Origin: an uncultured Acidobacteriia bacterium
Lineage (GTDB): Bacteria > Acidobacteriota > Terriglobia > Bryobacterales > Bryobacteraceae
Assembly: GCA_903907865.1 (NCBI GenBank)
Contig: CAIVPR010000130.1
Span: 1-55,810, forward strand
Reading direction: 5' to 3'
DNA length: 55,810 nt
A program made the translations under genes and the position numbers. Shown here piece after piece: positions 3,800-50,197 of this stretch. Numbering within the stretch: the stretch's first letter is position 1; each line of letters starts with the position of its first letter. The notes below the pieces were generated by a model. The model saw nothing but the letters and a program-made list of their open reading frames with translations. It was not told the DNA's origin and did no database searches.

Positions 3800-3978
3800 G
3801 CGGCCCTCCTTTGTGGAAAGTCCCGCACGTCGAACTTCCACAACTTGCCGATCCGGTAGGCCCGGATCAGACCTTTGGCGGCCCAATGGCGGACCGTTCG
3901 TTCAGGGACGCCTTTGCGTCTTGCTATGACATTTGTACCCACGAGGCGCACTTGCCCGTGGCGCGGCGATTCAGACAT
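3796..3978 (-). CDS. Small helix-turn-helix DNA-binding protein (excisionase/MerR-like HTH)
   Basis: A 60-residue protein with a single winged-helix/HTH_17-type domain: the pattern IARRKGVPERTVRHWAAKGLI followed by RIGKLWKF is the usual reading of excisionase-like and MerR-like helices (the second helix with RTVRHW contacts DNA, and the short wing holds W-K-F). It is translationally coupled to a 56-residue protein. Such proteins act as autoregulators of toxin-antitoxin or mobile-element genes. No integrase is nearby, so excisionase function is not supported. Confidence 0.72.
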   Translation of the reverse strand: MSESPRHGQVRLVGTNVIARRKGVPERTVRHWAAKGLIRAYRIGKLWKFDVRDFPQRRAA

Positions 3979-4078
3979 ATTGGATCCTCTCTTCGATTCG
4001 GAAACGTCTTCGACTCGGAAAAGATCGCGGTTTGTCTAGTGTGTTGGGGTGCCGGGACTTCGGCCTGAAAACCCGAGC

Positions 4079-4528
4079 CTAAAAGCAGGCCGGAATCGCT
4101 TCGGCCACCGGGCGGGGTGGATGGACTCCGTGGATTCGAAACCAAGGTTCTTCGAGGAGGAAGACGACTCTGCCGGAATCTGCGCCGAATAGCCGTCTGA
4201 GGAGGCAGCGGATTTCGTGCTTGAGCCGGATCAAGTAGCCAATCATCTCGACCAGTCTGCGGATTGGCGGCGACAGCTCGGTACTCAAGCCGGGATGCTT
4301 TTGGATCTGAACAAGGTCGGGGAACAGGCGAGTGTTGATGAGTCCTAGCGTGTACAGATCCGCGCGAGTGAGCGCTTGGTCTAATCGTCTCCTGCGCCAT
4401 TCGGCAGCTTCCAGTTCGAGAAGCACCCGCGCCGTGCCGAGCGCGCGATCCACGCCTTCAAATGCATGGCCACCGCACCCGCCATAGTCCACAGGCGCGG
4501 TAATTCGTTCAAGTCGAAAAACGTTCAT
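4079..4528 (-). CDS. Hypothetical protein
   Basis: A 149-residue open frame on the minus strand with plausible amino-acid composition: an acidic/hydrophobic helix (RVLLELEAAEWRRRRLDQAL), a central helix-rich part and a hydrophobic IRRLVEMIGYLIRLKHEIRCLLRRLF segment. It precedes the HTH gene on the same strand by about 100 bases and may be in one operon with it. AGGA lies about 12 bases before the ATG. It is not recognised, and the opposing frames in this GC-rich DNA are also partly open, so this is a moderate-confidence gene. Confidence 0.45.
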   Translation of the reverse strand: MNVFRLERITAPVDYGGCGGHAFEGVDRALGTARVLLELEAAEWRRRRLDQALTRADLYTLGLINTRLFPDLVQIQKHPGLSTELSPPIRRLVEMIGYLIRLKHEIRCLLRRLFGADSGRVVFLLEEPWFRIHGVHPPRPVAEAIPACF

Positions 4529-4775
4529 CTGAGGTTCATCCTACTGAGATCATCGCGCCGTCGCCTCGGCCAGTCAAGGCTGAACTCCATGTTTCCGGCA
4601 AAGGATATCGGACCTCGTGCCCGTCTTCATTGCCAACCATTGAACTCGCTCGCCAGAAGCACGCCATCAGCAGAACGGGCAGCGGGTCCACCCCACCCAA
4701 CGACGGAAACGTGTTCGCGGAAAACTCGCCGCCCTGTGCCCACTTTGTTACGATCAAGTCGGGAGGCGTTGCCGC

Positions 4776-5000
4776 ATGCGCTACACAGTGATCTTGGAAC
4801 GGGAGTCGGACGGGGGCTACGTAGTCATGATGCCCGCGCTGCCTGGTTGCGTGTCGCAGGGGGACACTCGCGAAGAGGCTCTCCGCAATATCCGTGAAGC
4901 CGCCGACCTATACATCGAAGATTGCTTGGCGTTCGGCGACCCGATACCGAACGAGGTTGGCCGCGAGTACTGCGAGGTCCTTGCGGGTTCTGTCCGTTGA
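4776..5000 (+). CDS. hicB: HicB-family antitoxin
   Basis: A 74-residue HicB protein. The partially degraded RNase H-like fold signature is clear: YTVILERESDGGYVVMMPALPGCVSQGDTREEALRNIREAADLYIED, in two conserved halves. HicB neutralises the HicA mRNA interferase and, in longer versions, represses the operon through a C-terminal DNA-binding domain. This one is too short to have that domain, so repression may depend on the complex or on another factor. The order is antitoxin first, toxin second, and the stop overlaps the likely toxin start. Confidence 0.9.
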   Translation: MRYTVILERESDGGYVVMMPALPGCVSQGDTREEALRNIREAADLYIEDCLAFGDPIPNEVGREYCEVLAGSVR

Positions 5001-5218
5001 AAACGCCCACTGATGTCACGGGCGATGAACTCGTAAAGATCTTGGAGCGCATGGGGTTTGTCCTCACCCGGCAGAGGGGAAGCCACATGATCCTGCGGCG
5101 AGATTCTCCATACGCCCGCGTGGTAGTCCCCGACCATCGACCGATTCGCGTCGGCACCCTGCGCTCAATCTTGAGTGACGCCGGGATTTCAATCGAGCGT
5201 TTCATAGCGCTGCGCTAA
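4997..5218 (+). CDS. hicA: HicA-family mRNA interferase toxin
   Basis: A 73-residue toxin with the double-stranded-RNA-binding-like HicA fold. The hallmark catalytic histidine lies in RQRGSHMILRR, after GDELVKILERMGFVL. HicA cleaves mRNA until it is bound by HicB. The start is inferred as TTG at 4997 because TTGA at 4997-5000 overlaps the hicB stop and the protein then begins directly at the domain (KTPTDVTGDEL). The frame is open upstream, but a longer start would lie inside hicB and add non-homologous residues. Toxin and antitoxin both look intact. Confidence 0.88.
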   Translation: MKTPTDVTGDELVKILERMGFVLTRQRGSHMILRRDSPYARVVVPDHRPIRVGTLRSILSDAGISIERFIALR

Positions 5219-5230
5219 AGCGGAACGAAA

Positions 5231-5254
5231 GGGCGGCGGGTTCCCCCGCAGCCC
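5231..5254. terminator. Probable bidirectional terminator
   Basis: GGGCGGCGGG at 5231-5240 and CCCGCAGCCC at 5245-5254 form a 10-base stem with one mismatch and a TTCC loop. It sits between the convergent ends of hicA (5218) and htpG (5272). There is no long T run on either side. Confidence 0.5.
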
Positions 5255-5271
5255 TCCCTCCAGCCACCCAC

Positions 5272-7200
5272 CTACTCCCCCAGCGACCGCTGCGTCATCC
5301 GCACCATAGCCTCGTTGAACTTCACCGGGTCCGCAATCTCCGACCCCTCCGCCAACAACGCCATCCCGAAAATCACCGTCGCCGAATCATCCACCACCGG
5401 GTCCGACGCGTTGGCCTCGAACCGCTTCCTTAAACCCACCACTACCGGATGCTTCGGATTCAACTCCAGCACCCGCTTCCGCTTCGGCACATCGCCCTTC
5501 GCTTGGCTCAGCAGCTTCTCCATGTACGCCGACATCTCGTAGTCATCCACCACCAAACACGCCGGCGACTTCACCAGCCTGTGCGATAGCCGCACCTCCT
5601 TGATGTCCTCCGAAAGCCGCTCCTGCACCCCCGTCAACAACGACGCGTAGTGCTCCCGCTCCGCCGCCTCCTCGGTCTCCTTCGCAGGGTCTTCCTTCTT
5701 GCCCTCGGCGTCCTTCTTGTCCAGGTCCAACGCGCCCTTGGCGGCCGACTTCAGTTGCTTGCCGTCAAACTCCGGCATGAACTGCAGCATGTACTCGTCC
5801 ACCGGGTCGAGCATGAACAGCACCTCGTACCCCTTCTCCCGGATCGCCTCCAAGTGCGGCGAATTCTCCACCGCCGACCGCGACCCGCCCGTCAGGTAGT
5901 AGATGTCCGCCTGTCCCTCCGGCATCCGCGCCACGTAGTCCTTCAACGACGTCAACGCGGTCGCATCATGCGTCGATTCGAACATCAACAGCGACGTGAT
6001 CCGGTCCTTGTGGTCGAAATCACTGCCCGCGCCTTCCTTGATCGCGCGCCCGAATTCCTTCCACATCTGGGCATACTTCGTGCCCTCGTTCGTCCGCAGG
6101 TTCTCCAGCGAATCCAGCACCTTGCGCGTCAGCCACTTGCGGATCTGGGTGATGTGGAGGTCGTGCTGCAGCCGCTGGCGGGAGATGTTGAGCGGCAGGT
6201 CGCTCGCGTCCACCACGCCGCGCACGAAGCGCAGGTAGGTGGGCAGCAGGTCCTGGCACTTCTCGATCACCAGCACGCGGCGCGCATACAGCCGGATTCC
6301 GGTGTCGGGCGAGCTGTAATACAGGTCCGGAGACGCCTTCGATGGTACGAACACCAGCGCTTGGTACTCGTGCAACCCCTCGGCCTTGTACGCGTAGTTG
6401 ACCAGCGCGTCCTGCCAGTCGTGCGTGATGTGCTTGTAGAACTCGTTGTATTCCTGTTCCGTGACCTCGCTGCGGGAGCGGGTCCAGATCGGCTTCATCG
6501 TGTTCAGCACGCGCCGCTCGGGCTGGCCGCCCTCTTCCTTCGCCGCCTCGACCATCACGATCGGGTAGTTGATGAAGTCGGAATGGCGCTTGACGATACT
6601 CGTGAGCTGCCAAGTCGCGGTGAAGTCCTCGATCCCGGCGTCATGGTCGGCATCGCGCAGGTAAAGCGTGACCGTGGTGCCGGAGGTGTCGCGCTCGGAG
6701 TCGGAAATCGTGTAGCTGCCGTCGCCGCGCGATTCCCAGCGGGTCGCGGTGGCCTCGCCGGCCTTGCGGGTCACGACCACAACCCGGTCGGCCACCATGA
6801 ACGACGAGTAGAACCCCACGCCGAACATGCCGATCAGGCTCGCCGCATCCTCGGCCGACTTGGCCGCCTGCAGCTTCTCGCGCGCCTCGCGCGTGCCGGA
6901 CCGGGCGATGGTGCCCAGATTCTTGATCGCGTCTTCCCGGCTCATGCCGATGCCGGTGTCGATGACGGAAAGCGTCCGGGGCGACGTCCCGGTTTCCAGG
7001 CGGATTTCGAATTCCTGCCCGGCGGGTACCAGGGCGGCGTCGGTGAGCGACTCGAATCGCAGCCGGTCGAGAGCGTCGGACGAGTTCGAGATTAACTCCC
7101 GTAGAAAGATTTCCTTCTCGGTGTAAAGAGAATGGATCACCAAGTCGAGCAGCCGCGCGGTTTCGGCTTCGAATTGGCAAGTCTGTGTTTCTGCAGACAT
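5272..7200 (-). CDS. htpG: Hsp90-family chaperone HtpG
   Basis: A 642-residue cytosolic ATP-dependent chaperone, the usual length for bacterial Hsp90. The GHKL ATPase domain shows LRELISNSSDALDRLR (the ATP-contacting Asn/Asp helix), DTGIGM and GVGFYSSFMVADRV; the middle domain has the NISRQRLQ arginine region; the C-terminal dimerisation domain has SPACLVV. The ATG at 7200 is favoured over an upstream in-frame codon at 7212 because GAGG lies about 7 bases before it. The gene stands alone, divergent from the SEC-C gene with a 233-base gap that must hold both promoters. Confidence 0.97.
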   Translation of the reverse strand: MSAETQTCQFEAETARLLDLVIHSLYTEKEIFLRELISNSSDALDRLRFESLTDAALVPAGQEFEIRLETGTSPRTLSVIDTGIGMSREDAIKNLGTIARSGTREAREKLQAAKSAEDAASLIGMFGVGFYSSFMVADRVVVVTRKAGEATATRWESRGDGSYTISDSERDTSGTTVTLYLRDADHDAGIEDFTATWQLTSIVKRHSDFINYPIVMVEAAKEEGGQPERRVLNTMKPIWTRSRSEVTEQEYNEFYKHITHDWQDALVNYAYKAEGLHEYQALVFVPSKASPDLYYSSPDTGIRLYARRVLVIEKCQDLLPTYLRFVRGVVDASDLPLNISRQRLQHDLHITQIRKWLTRKVLDSLENLRTNEGTKYAQMWKEFGRAIKEGAGSDFDHKDRITSLLMFESTHDATALTSLKDYVARMPEGQADIYYLTGGSRSAVENSPHLEAIREKGYEVLFMLDPVDEYMLQFMPEFDGKQLKSAAKGALDLDKKDAEGKKEDPAKETEEAAEREHYASLLTGVQERLSEDIKEVRLSHRLVKSPACLVVDDYEMSAYMEKLLSQAKGDVPKRKRVLELNPKHPVVVGLRKRFEANASDPVVDDSATVIFGMALLAEGSEIADPVKFNEAMVRMTQRSLGE

Positions 7201-45187: not shown

Positions 45188-47179
45188 GTGGGACGGATAC
45201 GGGTACTTTCCGACAACGTCGCCAACAAGATCGCCGCGGGCGAGGTGGTGGAGCGGCCTGCTTCCGTGGTCAAGGAACTGCTGGAGAATTCACTCGACGC
45301 GGGCTCGAAGAGCATCCGGGTCGAGATCGAGTCCGGCGGGCGGAGGCTGATCCGCGTGGCCGACGACGGCTGCGGGATGCTGGCTGACGACGCGTTGCTG
45401 GCCTTCGAGCGCCACGCGACGAGCAAACTTCACGACATCAAGGACCTGTTCTGCATCGCCACGCTCGGGTTTAGGGGCGAGGCGTTGCCGTCGATCGCGT
45501 CGGTGTCGCGGTTGTTGCTGGAGACGCGGTCGCTGGACGAATCGACCGGGACGCGGGTGGAGATCGCGGGCGGGAAGATTCTCAGTTGCGACGAGATCGC
45601 GCGGGGGGCCGGGACGACGATTTCGATCCGCGACCTGTTCTTCAACGTGCCGGTGCGGAAGAAATTCCTGCGGTCGGAGCAGACGGAGCTGGCGCACATC
45701 GCGTCGCTGGTGACGCACTACAGCTTGGCGCACCCGGACAAGACGTTCGAGCTGTATAGCGGCGGGTCGACGCTCCTGTACGCGACGCCTGTCGAATCGT
45801 TGCGGGAGCGTGTGTTCCAGGTGTTTGGGGCACCATTGCTGGAGGATTTGCTGGAGTTGGGGGAACGGCGGCTGTCCCTGCCAGACGAGGACCCTGCGGA
45901 ACCGGCGCGCGAGTACACGGTGCGGGGGTTCGTGTCGCGGCCACAGGTGCAGAAGAACAACCGGAATTCGATCTTCATCTTCGTCAACGGGCGGTTGATC
46001 CGGGACCGGCTGATCCTGCATTCGATCTCGGCGGCGTACCACAATCTGATGCCGCCCGCTTGTTTCCCGTTCGCGCTGCTGTTCCTCGAGTGCGATCCGG
46101 GCGAGGTGGACGTGAACGTGCACCCGTCGAAAACCGAGGTGCGGTTCCGGCACCAGACGGTGGTGCATGATTTTGTGCGGGATTCGATCCGGGAGCAGTT
46201 GATGGTGTCGCGGCCCGCGCCGTCCTTTTCGGCTGCGGTGTCGCCGAGTCCGATCCCGGTGGCCCAAGTGGGTGGGGCGTTGCCGTATTCCGAGTTTTCG
46301 CAGATGATGCGGGACCACGAGGCTCGGGGGGCCGATCCGGGCGCGCCGTTGGGGGAGATGCCGCCGGTGTTCGAGCCGGGGCCGCAGCCGCCGGTTTCGG
46401 AGTTCGTGATGCAGCCCAGTTTGGCACCTGTGGGGCGGTTCGACTTCGGGGACGTCGGGATTCCGGTGAACCAGGGGCCGGTTTCGCCGAGGCCGGAACC
46501 GGCGGCGGTGGCGCCGTTGAAGCTGCGGGTGCCGGACACGCACGGGGCGTTTCCGGCGGGTGTCGGGTCGGCGGCTGGAATGTCGCAGAGCATGGAGCGG
46601 ATCGGGGAACTGCGGCCGTTGGGTCAGCTGCACAACAGCTTCATCATCGCGGCGGGCGTGGACGGGCTGTGGATCATCGACCAACACGTGGCGCATGAAC
46701 GGATTCTGTTCGAACAGGTGCTGGCGCAGCAGGCGTCGGGGCGGGTGGAGGTGCAGCAACTGCTGATGCCGGTGATCCTGCAACTGACGCAGGGGCAGCA
46801 GATCGAGTACGCGCGGATCGAGGACGAGTTGCGGGCGTCAGGTTTTGATACGGAGCCGTTCGGCAACCGGACGATCGCGATCAAGGCGGCACCATCGGCG
46901 ATTGGGATGGGCGACCTGGAGCGGGTGGTGTTGGAGATTTTGGAGATCGCGGAGAATGAGTTAAGGACGGTGTCGGTGTCGGATCTGCGGCGGGGGATCG
47001 CGGCGTCGATAGCGTGCCGGGCGGCGATCAAGATCAACACACCGTTGGATCAAAGGAAGATGGAGTGGATGCTAAGGACGCTGGCGGCGACCGAGTATCC
47101 GATGGCGTGCCCGCACGGCCGGCCCGTGGCGCTGCAGTACGGGACACGGGAGATTTTGAAGGCGTTCCATAGAATATGA
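45188..47179 (+). CDS. mutL: DNA mismatch repair protein MutL with endonuclease motifs
   Basis: A 663-residue MutL. N-terminal GHKL ATPase: IAAGEVVERPASVVKELLENSLDAG, DDGCGM, TLGFRGEALPSI and NGRLI. The linker (about 340-470) is long and Pro/Gly-rich. The C-terminal domain has the metal-dependent nicking motifs DQHVAHERILFE (Asp498), SIACRAAIK (Cys610) and CPHGRP (Cys641), consistent with the MutH-less type of mismatch repair. GTG start. Its stop overlaps the next gene's ATG (ATGA, 47176-47179), linking it to a defence-like pair. Confidence 0.96.
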   Translation: MGRIRVLSDNVANKIAAGEVVERPASVVKELLENSLDAGSKSIRVEIESGGRRLIRVADDGCGMLADDALLAFERHATSKLHDIKDLFCIATLGFRGEALPSIASVSRLLLETRSLDESTGTRVEIAGGKILSCDEIARGAGTTISIRDLFFNVPVRKKFLRSEQTELAHIASLVTHYSLAHPDKTFELYSGGSTLLYATPVESLRERVFQVFGAPLLEDLLELGERRLSLPDEDPAEPAREYTVRGFVSRPQVQKNNRNSIFIFVNGRLIRDRLILHSISAAYHNLMPPACFPFALLFLECDPGEVDVNVHPSKTEVRFRHQTVVHDFVRDSIREQLMVSRPAPSFSAAVSPSPIPVAQVGGALPYSEFSQMMRDHEARGADPGAPLGEMPPVFEPGPQPPVSEFVMQPSLAPVGRFDFGDVGIPVNQGPVSPRPEPAAVAPLKLRVPDTHGAFPAGVGSAAGMSQSMERIGELRPLGQLHNSFIIAAGVDGLWIIDQHVAHERILFEQVLAQQASGRVEVQQLLMPVILQLTQGQQIEYARIEDELRASGFDTEPFGNRTIAIKAAPSAIGMGDLERVVLEILEIAENELRTVSVSDLRRGIAASIACRAAIKINTPLDQRKMEWMLRTLAATEYPMACPHGRPVALQYGTREILKAFHRI

Positions 47180-48345
47180 TCCGGAAGATCACACCTCGGA
47201 ATTTCTTGTCGTTCGGGCCGGAGTTTCCTGGCATCGAGTTGCGGCCGCTGAACGTGTTGATCGGGGCGAACGGGTGCGGGAAGTCGAATCTGATCGAGGC
47301 TGTGGCCTTTATGAGGGCGGCCCCGAAGGATTTCCAGGAGGTGACGCGGCGGGGTGGGGGAGTTGGGGAGTGGATTTGGAAGGGACAGCCGCATCACGAC
47401 GCTTCGGTCGAGTGGGTTCTGTCATATGACGAGGTCGATGAGTCCGGCCACCCCAAGACCTTATCCCACTACGCCGCATTTTTTGAAGACCATCATGCCT
47501 TCTCGCTGTCGGAGGAGCGAATCGACGAAGTCGATGTGACACCGGTGGCACGGTTGCCCTACTACCAATACAAATTGGGCACATACGGCACATTCTATGA
47601 CGGTCCACAGCCGGAACCTCTGCCGGTCCGGGAGGAAGTAGATCTTTCTGTATTGGCGCTGGTAAGAGACCCGTGGAGCCGCGCTGATCTAAGCTTGCTC
47701 GCTCAGGACTACGAACACATGCGCATCTATCGTGAGTGGGTGTTCGGGCGCGATTCCAAACTTAGGGACTCGCAAAGGGCCGACCAAAGGAAGGACATTC
47801 TCGCGGAGGATTTCTCCAACCTTGGCCTCTTTCTAAATCGGCTGCAGAGTCGCTTCCCGGTAGCTAAGAGGGCAATCATCGAAAACCTCAAGGACCTGTA
47901 TGAAGGCGTTACCGACTTCAACATCTCCATTGATGGGGGCACCGTGCAGATCTACTTCACCGAGGGAGACTTCAGCATTCCGGCGACCCGGCTCTCTGAC
48001 GGTACTATCCGGTATCTTTGCCTTTTGGCGATTCTTTGCGATCCCGAGCCTCCGCCGTTGATCTGTCTCGAAGAACCGGAATTGGGGTTGCATCCTGATA
48101 TCCTTGCGAACTTGGCCAAGCTGCTGCTGGAGGCCTCGACACGGACGCAGTTGATCGTCACTACGCATTCCGAGGTTTTGGTTGACTTCATGACCGAAAC
48201 CCCCGAGTGCGTTGTGGTGTGCTCGAAGGAGCAAGGGCAAACGGTCATGGAGCGGCTGAACGCGGATGATTTAAAGGTTTGGCTGGAGAGGTATCGGCTG
48301 GGGCAGCTGTGGAGCATGGGCCAAATCGGGGGAAACCGCTGGTGA
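47176..48345 (+). CDS. AAA ATPase of the OLD/RecF-like (COG4637-like) group
   Basis: A 389-residue ABC-type ATPase, the SMC/RecF/OLD fold. Walker A is GANGCGKSN (30-38) after NVLI, and the ABC-type signature is ATRLSDGTIRYLCLLAIL; Walker B is ICLEEPELGLHP (296-307) with two acidic residues, and THSEV is the switch histidine. The end LGQLWSMGQIGGNRW is the usual tail of this group. No fused TOPRIM domain; that role is probably in the DUF4276 protein coded by a GTGA overlap right after it. Such ATPase/nuclease-like pairs are often anti-phage modules. Confidence 0.88.
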   Translation: MIRKITPRNFLSFGPEFPGIELRPLNVLIGANGCGKSNLIEAVAFMRAAPKDFQEVTRRGGGVGEWIWKGQPHHDASVEWVLSYDEVDESGHPKTLSHYAAFFEDHHAFSLSEERIDEVDVTPVARLPYYQYKLGTYGTFYDGPQPEPLPVREEVDLSVLALVRDPWSRADLSLLAQDYEHMRIYREWVFGRDSKLRDSQRADQRKDILAEDFSNLGLFLNRLQSRFPVAKRAIIENLKDLYEGVTDFNISIDGGTVQIYFTEGDFSIPATRLSDGTIRYLCLLAILCDPEPPPLICLEEPELGLHPDILANLAKLLLEASTRTQLIVTTHSEVLVDFMTETPECVVVCSKEQGQTVMERLNADDLKVWLERYRLGQLWSMGQIGGNRW

Positions 48346-48962
48346 GCGCCAGGATTTATGTCGAAGGCGGCGGTAAGATCCGCAGCCTTCAGGGACCCTG
48401 TCGCGAAGCTTTCAGCCGACTCCTCGGGAGTGCCTTGCCGAATAAGCCGCAGATGAAGATCGTCGCGTGCGGCGGTCGGGGAGATACCTACAACGCCTTC
48501 AAGACCCAGCACGCCGCCTCAAAAGGAGAGTTCGTCGGGCTACTTGTCGATAGTGAGGAGAGGGTTGTGGATGTGAACCGGCCTTGGGCACACCTGGCCA
48601 GTCAGCCGAAGGACAAGTGGGACAAGCCGAAGACCGCCACGGACGACCAAGTCTTCCTCATGACCACCTGCATGGAAACCTGGATCGTCGCGGATCGGGA
48701 AACGCTCCGGAAGCACTACGGCTCCAGGCTGAACGAGAAAGCGCTACCAGCGGCGCACAATCTCGAAACCAAGGATCGACACGTGGTCCAAGACGATCTA
48801 GTCAAGGCCACCAAGGATTGCACCAACGCTTACTCGAAGGGCAAACGCTCGTTCGAGGTCTTGGAAAAGCTGGACCCGAAGGCACTCACCGCATTACCCA
48901 GTTTCCAGCGCATGGTACGCATCCTGAACGAAAAGCTGTCCCCCTACACCGAAATCCGGTAA
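48342..48962 (+). CDS. DUF4276 family protein (TOPRIM-like partner)
   Basis: A 206-residue protein beginning at GTG 48342, overlapping the ATPase stop by GTGA. Glu8 in IYVEGGG and Asp70-Ser-Glu72 in FVGLLVDSEER are where a TOPRIM fold places its metal-binding Glu and Asp-x-Asp (one Asp replaced by Glu). Conserved family elements MTTCMETWIVADRETLRKHYG and YSKGKRSFEVLEKLDP follow. I infer that it is the nuclease-like or effector half of the ATPase pair. Its 3' end overlaps the opposite sialidase-like gene by 19 bases. Confidence 0.82.
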   Translation: MSARIYVEGGGKIRSLQGPCREAFSRLLGSALPNKPQMKIVACGGRGDTYNAFKTQHAASKGEFVGLLVDSEERVVDVNRPWAHLASQPKDKWDKPKTATDDQVFLMTTCMETWIVADRETLRKHYGSRLNEKALPAAHNLETKDRHVVQDDLVKATKDCTNAYSKGKRSFEVLEKLDPKALTALPSFQRMVRILNEKLSPYTEIR

Positions 48963-50197
48963 ACCAACGCATCCCCCCGCCAAGCCTCCGGGAACGCGAA
49001 CAACCGTGACACGTGCAGCGCGATCCGCCCATCCCGCCGGTCCTCGTGCGCGTTGAGCCCGTACAGCATCAGGATTTCATCCTCGTCCGCCATCCGGTCG
49101 TCGATTTGGACCAGGCTCTCCCGTATCAATCCCCCGTCCGTCCGGTCCACCTCCCCCAGATAAACCGGATACCGGGGCCGGTTGCCGCGGGCGTTCGTCG
49201 CCGAAATGTGGCCGATCCAAAACAGCCGCCCGCTCGAATGTGACACCAACTGCGAACACGCGCTGGGCGAGAAGAACGGTTCGCCGCCCCGGTACGTCCA
49301 CGTCACAGGCTTGCTCCACCGCATGCCGCCGTCCGACGACCATGAAACCCACTTCCTCGCGGGCAATGCGGGGTTCTTGTCGTTCGATCCGCGCATCACC
49401 ATCATCAGCCGCCCGTCGGGGAGCCGTGCCAGCGTCGGCTCATCCATGCCCCGTGTGGACCGGGCCGGATCCCCCTGGACCGGCTCCGACGCCTTCCACT
49501 CCAGTCCGCCGTTGCGCCACCGGGCATGCAGCACCACCGCGTCCGTGTACGTGTAGCCGCCGGTTGGGTTGTAGGGCTTCCCGTCCTTGTCCAATGGCGT
49601 GGTCACGGCAGGTACCAGAATCCACCCGTCGGGCAGCACCAGCGGTACCGATGCCACGTCCCCCAACATCACCATGCTCCGACCGTCAAACACGCCCGGA
49701 AACGGATGCGCCGCGTCGAATCCCGGCCCCGACTGGATGGCCTGCCGTTCCACGCCGTCCACCCGGTAGAAAATGTTCCACCGCCGCATGCCTTCGAGCG
49801 GATCGTCCGTCGGCAGCACTCCTTGGACCAGGAATTCGATGAATTTCCCTGTGGCCGGTTCCACCACGCCGGTTCTCGGATGCCTGCGCAACATGCCCCC
49901 GGGCCGCTTCTCCGACGACTTGCGCTCCTCGGGAGGCCCCCATGTCCGCCCGTGGTCCGTCGACCGCCGGTAGAAAGCCGCGTCCACCGTGTCCGACCGG
50001 CTGTACCGCGTTTCCACCGACAGCATCTCCCCGCCGGATTTCGCCGTGTACCACGACGCCGCCATGACGGCGGTGCCCTTGGCCGGCGAGGCAAGGAACA
50101 GCTCCCGCGAGACTCTCGGGGAGGCTGGCAAGCTCTGTCCGCATAGGAGCGGAACGCCCAGCGCCGACAATCCGACGAACTCCCTCCGGGTCGGCAT
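48944..50197 (-). CDS. Sialidase-like propeller protein, exported
   Basis: A 417-residue protein with a Tat-type signal (PTRREFVGLSALGVPLLCG) and a beta-propeller sequence. Asp-box-like repeats include STDHGRTWG and SSDGGMRWS. The YRIP motif of true sialidases is absent, so substrate and catalysis are uncertain; BNR-repeat hydrolases of this kind act on host or polymer glycans. It is followed by the SGNH hydrolase gene's position upstream (4 bases between them), so they form a two-gene secreted-enzyme operon. Confidence 0.78.
   Translation of the reverse strand: MPTRREFVGLSALGVPLLCGQSLPASPRVSRELFLASPAKGTAVMAASWYTAKSGGEMLSVETRYSRSDTVDAAFYRRSTDHGRTWGPPEERKSSEKRPGGMLRRHPRTGVVEPATGKFIEFLVQGVLPTDDPLEGMRRWNIFYRVDGVERQAIQSGPGFDAAHPFPGVFDGRSMVMLGDVASVPLVLPDGWILVPAVTTPLDKDGKPYNPTGGYTYTDAVVLHARWRNGGLEWKASEPVQGDPARSTRGMDEPTLARLPDGRLMMVMRGSNDKNPALPARKWVSWSSDGGMRWSKPVTWTYRGGEPFFSPSACSQLVSHSSGRLFWIGHISATNARGNRPRYPVYLGEVDRTDGGLIRESLVQIDDRMADEDEILMLYGLNAHEDRRDGRIALHVSRLFAFPEAWRGDALVYRISV

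Follow-up and report, generated by a model that had tools for sequence, protein, structure and literature searches.

We analyzed a stretch of 55,810 nucleotides (the window) from an uncultured Acidobacteriia bacterium of the Bryobacteraceae (assembly GCA_903907865.1, contig CAIVPR010000130.1), in which genes for an ABC ATPase and a DUF4276 protein directly follow the mismatch repair gene mutL. The pair is real and conserved, forms a module with defence associations, and belongs to a candidate kind already known, HEC-01. With a probability of about 0.72, we regard it as a horizontally mobile module of this kind that was inserted between mutL and a sialidase-like gene and that would serve in defence in the manner of PARIS or Gabija. 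This reading draws on the family assignments and predicted fold of the two proteins, on a patchy spread, on the placement of some relatives in restriction and BREX loci, and on the lack of any mutL link among the relatives examined.

Gene structure and protein families of the pair

The sequence, read directly, showed that the stop codon of mutL and the start codon of the ATPase gene (47176..48345, + strand, 389 amino acids) share the bases ATGA, with the ATPase ATG at 47176; since a TAG lies in the ATPase frame two codons 5′ of this ATG, no earlier start is available. The ATPase stop codon (48343-48345) is preceded by a G, giving TGGTGA, and the DUF4276 gene (48342..48962, + strand, 206 amino acids) begins with the GTG at 48342, such that the two genes overlap by 4 bases (GTGA). 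The G of this overlap comes from TGG, the last codon of an ATPase tail, LGQLWSMGQIGGNRW (48298..48342, + strand), that is conserved in alignments of relatives. Both overlaps had been proposed in a sequence-only reading of this DNA, made without database searches, and the coordinates bore them out.

The ATPase matched the HEC-01A model of PADLOC-DB 2.0.0 (PDLC04177) with an E value of 2.5e-147, its residues 1-389 aligning with profile positions 4-393 of 393, and it also matched Pfam AAA_21 (E 3e-34). Other PADLOC matches were much weaker, namely AriA (best 2.9e-33), AbiLi (8.1e-25), mad3 (3.2e-22) and OLD models, and none of the 25 NCBIfam families listed (of 35) for the ATPase reached its curated cut-off, nor did the one found for the DUF4276 protein. 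Alignment placed the Walker A motif GANGCGKS at residues 30-37 (47263..47286), the ABC signature LSDGT at residues 273-277 (47992..48006) and the Walker B motif PLICLEE at residues 294-300 (48055..48075), all on the + strand, together with the H-loop histidine H331. In 21 aligned ATPase rows, the window included, G30, N32, G35, K36, S37, S274, G276, T277, E300 and H331 were invariant. The predicted structure had a predicted local distance difference test score (pLDDT) of 89.9, and no TOPRIM domain was found in this protein. Thus, the product is an OLD-family ABC ATPase in which all four of these elements are present, and the earlier claim of complete motifs without TOPRIM holds.

The DUF4276 protein matched the HEC-01B model (PDLC04201, E 7.9e-66, residues 2-199) and Pfam DUF4276 (PF14103, E 3e-13), and no other PADLOC model, AriB included, at an E value up to 1. 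Its AlphaFold2 model had a pLDDT of 95.8, and structure comparison returned OLD-family TOPRIM nucleases as the closest folds. Sequence searches of solved structures gave nothing at an E value up to 1, and profile searches gave 0.19 or worse; the TOPRIM assignment therefore rests on the predicted structure together with conserved residues. In the model, Glu8 (48363..48365, + strand) lies directly past the first strand (residues 3-7), and Asp70-Ser71-Glu72 (48549..48557, + strand) is at the end of the third strand (residues 64-70). Among 73 aligned rows, the window included, Glu8, Asp70 and Ser71 were found in all and Glu72 in 72. The 80 public loci compared here, the best 80 of 289 confirmed, had been retrieved by means of a pattern covering residues 107-115, which partly predetermines the conservation of that segment; E8, D70 and E72 lie outside the pattern. 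These data suggested that the protein is a predicted OLD-type TOPRIM nuclease. The sequence-only reading had assigned Glu8 and Asp70/Glu72 to TOPRIM-like positions and had named the lack of such a fold as an outcome against it; the residues were located and conserved as described above, and the model returned the fold.

Position 12 of the DUF4276 protein, usually acidic, is a Lys here, and both ends of the module appear trimmed at its junctions, as might be expected of a decayed remnant without activity. Yet both frames are open and of full length, and the ATPase motifs as well as E8, D70 and E72 have been kept, which makes such a remnant highly improbable.

As for the unity of the pair, the ATPase gene lay directly 5′ of the DUF4276 gene in 78 of the 80 public loci, the other two starting at a contig edge. 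The overlap was the exact GTGA in 66 of these 78 loci and 7 bases long in 10, with offsets of 0 and -1 once each. A search of the family gave an ATPase match in 31 of 32 loci (30 from relatives and two from the own genome), and the divergence of the two proteins was correlated over 72 rows (Mantel r 0.48, against a highest value of 0.23 in 1000 permutations). The own genome carries six DUF4276 genes, every one of them behind an ATPase relative. One such pair, at 3806-7176 of locus L244 on contig C3, stands 34 bases behind a same-strand gene for a primary-type sigma-70 factor and is thus a second pair directly behind a housekeeping gene in this genome.

The spread of the pair is patchy and covers many phyla, archaea included, with hosts in Methanosarcinaceae, Methanothrix, Methanocalculus, Methanoculleus and others (loci L154, L159, L161, L177, L193, L195, L196, L198, L203 and L205). 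The archaeal copies occupy three separate places in the ATPase tree, indicating transfer between domains. Split matches, with the ATPase in two pieces in L109 (7983-9136) and L110 and the DUF4276 gene in two pieces in L113, suggest decaying copies. Phage matches of the ATPase were weak (4 records, 24-27.5% identity), and its relatives were present at no fewer than 11 viral-contig loci, including a full-length relative of 49% identity on a 44.7 kb IMG/VR contig (L225, 5530-6687). A phage origin was considered and rejected, as the DUF4276 protein had no phage match (E up to 0.01) and query A5 had no match in viral contigs. A plasmid origin was likewise rejected, no match being found in plasmids (E up to 1e-5) in a search made with the DUF4276 protein only, the ATPase not being searched there.

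The mutL neighbourhood and the junctions of the module

The intact host gene mutL (45188..47179, + strand, 663 amino acids, Pfam MutL_C and DNA_mis_repair) was detected in 194 of 200 family genomes. We compared 27 mutL loci, comprising the 20 best-matching of these 194 genomes and 7 further genus members, and tblastn found the pair in none of them; two of these loci hold merely 638 and 1117 bases 3′ of mutL. The DNA after mutL differed among the 20 family loci, small groups having a common neighbour. In the relatives G199 and G206, whose MutL is 93% identical to that of the window, a convergent open reading frame (ORF) follows mutL, which in G199 ends in TAG (last codons CGG ATC TAG, versus AGA ATA TGA here). 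G206 had no DUF4276 relative at an E value up to 0.001, and G199 has two related pairs elsewhere in its genome, one beside hsdM and hsdS. Within the genus, a relative of the DUF4276 protein occurred in 4 of 19 genomes, the own included.

Conversely, the 80 public loci, which range from 3.1 to 20.6 kb, contained no mutL-like sequence at an E value up to 1e-6, and among the loci examined the overlap with mutL occurs in this genome only. Neighbour ORFs were called with a simple longest-ORF script, and among the 71 loci having an upstream ORF, 13 had it no more than 25 bases away and in the same orientation; eight of these ORFs were HsdS-like and two BrxC-like, another belonged to a BREX locus, and the remaining two (L183 and L185) were neither. 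The sequence-only reading had considered a functional tie to mismatch repair, in which the ATPase or the nuclease acts with MutL, and such a tie would explain the ATGA coupling; the RecF/SMC/Rad50-like fold of the ATPase, typical of DNA transactions, also speaks for it. However, a MutL partnership is rejected on the neighbourhoods (0/27 and 0/80) and by the two closest relatives, one lacking a DUF4276 gene and the other keeping its pairs elsewhere, and we hold a repair function to be extremely improbable. The adjacency is thus incidental and looks like an accident of insertion, which the same reading had offered as an alternative and which fits best.

The junctions were located by alignment. 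At the left junction (47170..47179, + strand), the flank aligns with the DNA of G199 and of G206 as far as 47170 in each case. At the right junction (48938..48962, + strand), the DUF4276 tail overlaps the 3′ end of the convergent BNR/sialidase-like gene (48944..50197, - strand, Pfam BNR_2), a neighbour of the host lineage with about 74% DNA identity in G199. Homology of this gene begins at 48953 or 48954 in all four loci aligned, and a fifth match, not fetched, begins at 48969. These limits (47170 and 48953/48954) leave about 1.78 kb between the terminal codons of the two genes. The last residues of the DUF4276 protein are read from DNA overlapping the end of the neighbour, and the alignment columns of this tail (203-206) are empty in 26-27 of 30 rows. 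GC content at third codon positions (GC3) was 0.71 and 0.75 in the pair, compared with 0.81-0.89 in eight neighbours. A short ATCCGG repeat was seen by eye at both junctions and is not called a target duplication. Horizontal insertion is indicated, since GC3 is low, each boundary falls within the final codons of a flanking gene (mutL or the convergent gene), and the spread is patchy.

In G199, mutL and the sialidase-like gene are on different contigs and are not neighbours, so that a rearrangement, or an assembly error, also took place. Should the error be in the window's draft assembly, which has 186 contigs, the join of the pair to either flanking gene could be an artefact, and the other neighbours of both genes in G199 would agree with this. 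Against it, the two flanks come from one lineage, the reading frames join without disruption on either side, and gene order is variable within the genus; hence, we consider an assembly error very unlikely. Under the preferred reading, the module would have entered the genome between mutL and the convergent sialidase-like gene. Because it ends within the terminal codons of both flanking genes, its translation would probably proceed by termination-reinitiation behind mutL.

Restriction and BREX contexts of the relatives

Clustering of neighbour ORFs from 78 loci revealed HsdS-like proteins in 13, HsdR-like in 10 and HsdM-like in 8, and in six loci (L146, L151, L152, L171, L184 and L206) the genes run on one strand in the order hsdM, hsdS, [ATPase, DUF4276], hsdR. 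By tblastn, Hsd-like sequence was found in 17 of 80 loci (by a single subunit in L162, L168 and L224) and BrxC/PglX of BREX in 3, while none of either was detected in the 27 mutL control loci or in the window. Neither kind was found in 60 of the 80 loci, so that, within the reach of these tests, the module frequently stands alone. PADLOC and Pfam matches of representatives confirmed type I specificity, methyltransferase and restriction subunits as well as PglX, PglZ, BrxC and DarG. For a PADLOC count, a random draw took 36 of the 51 loci that were eligible; the scan comprised 127 ORFs from 32 of them (3 of 4 ORFs in the last locus) and gave type I specificity in five and REase_I in four. As a control, 122 ORFs flanking mutL at 25 loci, all from genomes of the window's family rather than from the relatives' own genomes, gave no restriction subunit and one member for each of five models (three rtcR-like, mad2 and mad3).

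Some further features of these loci and of the own genome were observed. Macro-domain genes of one cluster stand near the pair in the restriction-linked loci L168, L178 and L189, and the one scanned, from L178, is DarG-like. Type I restriction genes are present on further contigs of the own genome. They include a locus on contig C131 (L247, 576-8295) related to those in which the pair resides elsewhere; in L247, the HsdR-like sequence is divided between two reading frames, and no ATPase-DUF4276 pair was found. A PADLOC scan of 59 ORFs of the window, with 25 of 46 families listed, gave kinase models (PD-T4-6 and mad6) and helicase models (DpdF and BrxH) matching one ORF per model; these models are broad, and the matched ORFs may be ordinary kinases and helicases.

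The ATPase tree retained 72 of 79 rows (78 loci plus the window), short or interrupted sequences being dropped, and it included 13 of the 16 loci labelled restriction-linked and all three BREX loci. The window's copy fell into an 18-row group with a bootstrap of 89 and an approximate likelihood ratio test value (SH-aLRT) of 85, a support below what the program marks as strong. This group includes 12 of the 13 restriction-linked rows, so that Hsd genes surround the pair in 12 of the 17 other members and not in the window itself. The five unlabelled members comprise three on contigs of 3.1-6.0 kb, L186, located at the start of its contig, and L223, flanked by 10 kb on either side; neither L186 nor L223 showed Hsd sequence. 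The group covers Acidobacteriota, Verrucomicrobiota, Planctomycetota, Pseudomonadota, Cyanobacteriota and Thermodesulfobacteriota, and its restriction-linked rows come from the first five. With middling tree support, the window's copy would be an orphan of a restriction-linked lineage.

We also weighed a toxin-antitoxin-like or selfish addiction module, in which the ATPase holds a TOPRIM toxin and the pair persists without phage defence. Two overlapping genes, a patchy spread, the frequent lack of a recognized defence neighbour and the six pairs of the own genome are compatible with this. But recurrent placement in type I restriction and BREX loci, several times in operon order and strand, points to defence, and the boundary to abortive-infection defence is thin; an addiction module is accordingly unlikely. 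Thus, of the interpretation in the sequence-only reading, an OLD/PARIS-like pair of an ATPase and a TOPRIM-type protein with defence associations stands on the predicted fold and on the restriction and BREX loci, and since no mutL-like sequence was found near the homologs (0/80), the tie to mismatch repair does not.

Proposed mechanism and comparison with known systems

In the defence module that we favour, the OLD-family ATPase would act as sensor and scaffold and the separate DUF4276 protein as effector, with synthesis of the two probably kept in step by the start of the second gene inside the stop codon of the first. By analogy with PARIS or Gabija, the ATPase would most likely keep the TOPRIM protein inactive and free it or switch it on at a phage signal, and the activated protein would cut nucleic acid via metal ions held at Glu8 and Asp70/Glu72. 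As the nearest kin in the tree lie mostly inside type I restriction loci, in its ancestral role the pair probably backed up or guarded restriction. The window's copy may act alone or in trans, and guarding in trans is conceivable given the type I restriction genes on other contigs.

In a more specific version, possible though doubtful, DUF4276 pairs would be PARIS-like guards of restriction and BREX, one lineage of which, in hsdM-hsdS-[ATPase-DUF4276]-hsdR operons, answers the disabling of restriction by a phage protein with its TOPRIM nuclease. The copy in the window would have left its restriction operon and, now translated off mutL, could watch restriction systems elsewhere in the genome. 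The recurring and phylogenetically clustered type I placement makes this guard hypothesis directly testable for a candidate system. In addition, the DUF4276 group gains a predicted structural identity as OLD-type TOPRIM proteins, and the locus cautions against reading a common function into a close overlap with a repair gene, as neighbourhood comparison showed the overlap to be local.

Among known systems, the closest is HEC-01, a PADLOC candidate, as both proteins match its HEC-01A and HEC-01B models over nearly full length and the genes are adjacent. HEC stands for Hma-embedded candidates, a name that PMC12988326 traces to a preprint by Payne et al. (2024); the citing paper credits several HECs, HEC-06 included, with antiviral activity, and HEC-01 is among the systems predicted in Desulfovibrio piger strains (PMC12724379). 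Neither a test of HEC-01 nor a mention of DUF4276 was found in the literature searched. Those candidates were found by their embedding, whereas the pair in the window is an orphan behind mutL with no host defence operon.

PARIS (AriA/AriB), described in PMC12796447 as Class 4 OLD, likewise has its ATPase and TOPRIM protein encoded by separate adjacent genes, but the nuclease here is a DUF4276 protein of 206 residues, compared with 306 in the PARIS chain, and no AriB model matched it at an E value up to 1. Class 1 and 2 OLD proteins (P2 Old, T. scotoductus OLD and GajA) also combine an ABC ATPase with an OLD-type TOPRIM nuclease, predicted in our case, and are among the closest folds; there, both domains are on one polypeptide (PMC10568477), in contrast to the two genes here. 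AbiL and MADS resemble the pair in that the ATPase matches AbiLi (8.1e-25) and mad3 (3.2e-22), although these matches are weaker than that to HEC-01A, and the DUF4276 protein matches HEC-01B models only (E up to 1). Finally, OLD-ABC plus TOPRIM dyads in BREX loci (PMC12839542) show the same pairing, which is also BREX-embedded in 3 of our 80 loci; DUF4276 has no occurrence in that paper, and the host operons here are mostly type I Hsd. Those dyads were proposed there as backup effectors, and the placement of the DUF4276 pairs fits this proposal.

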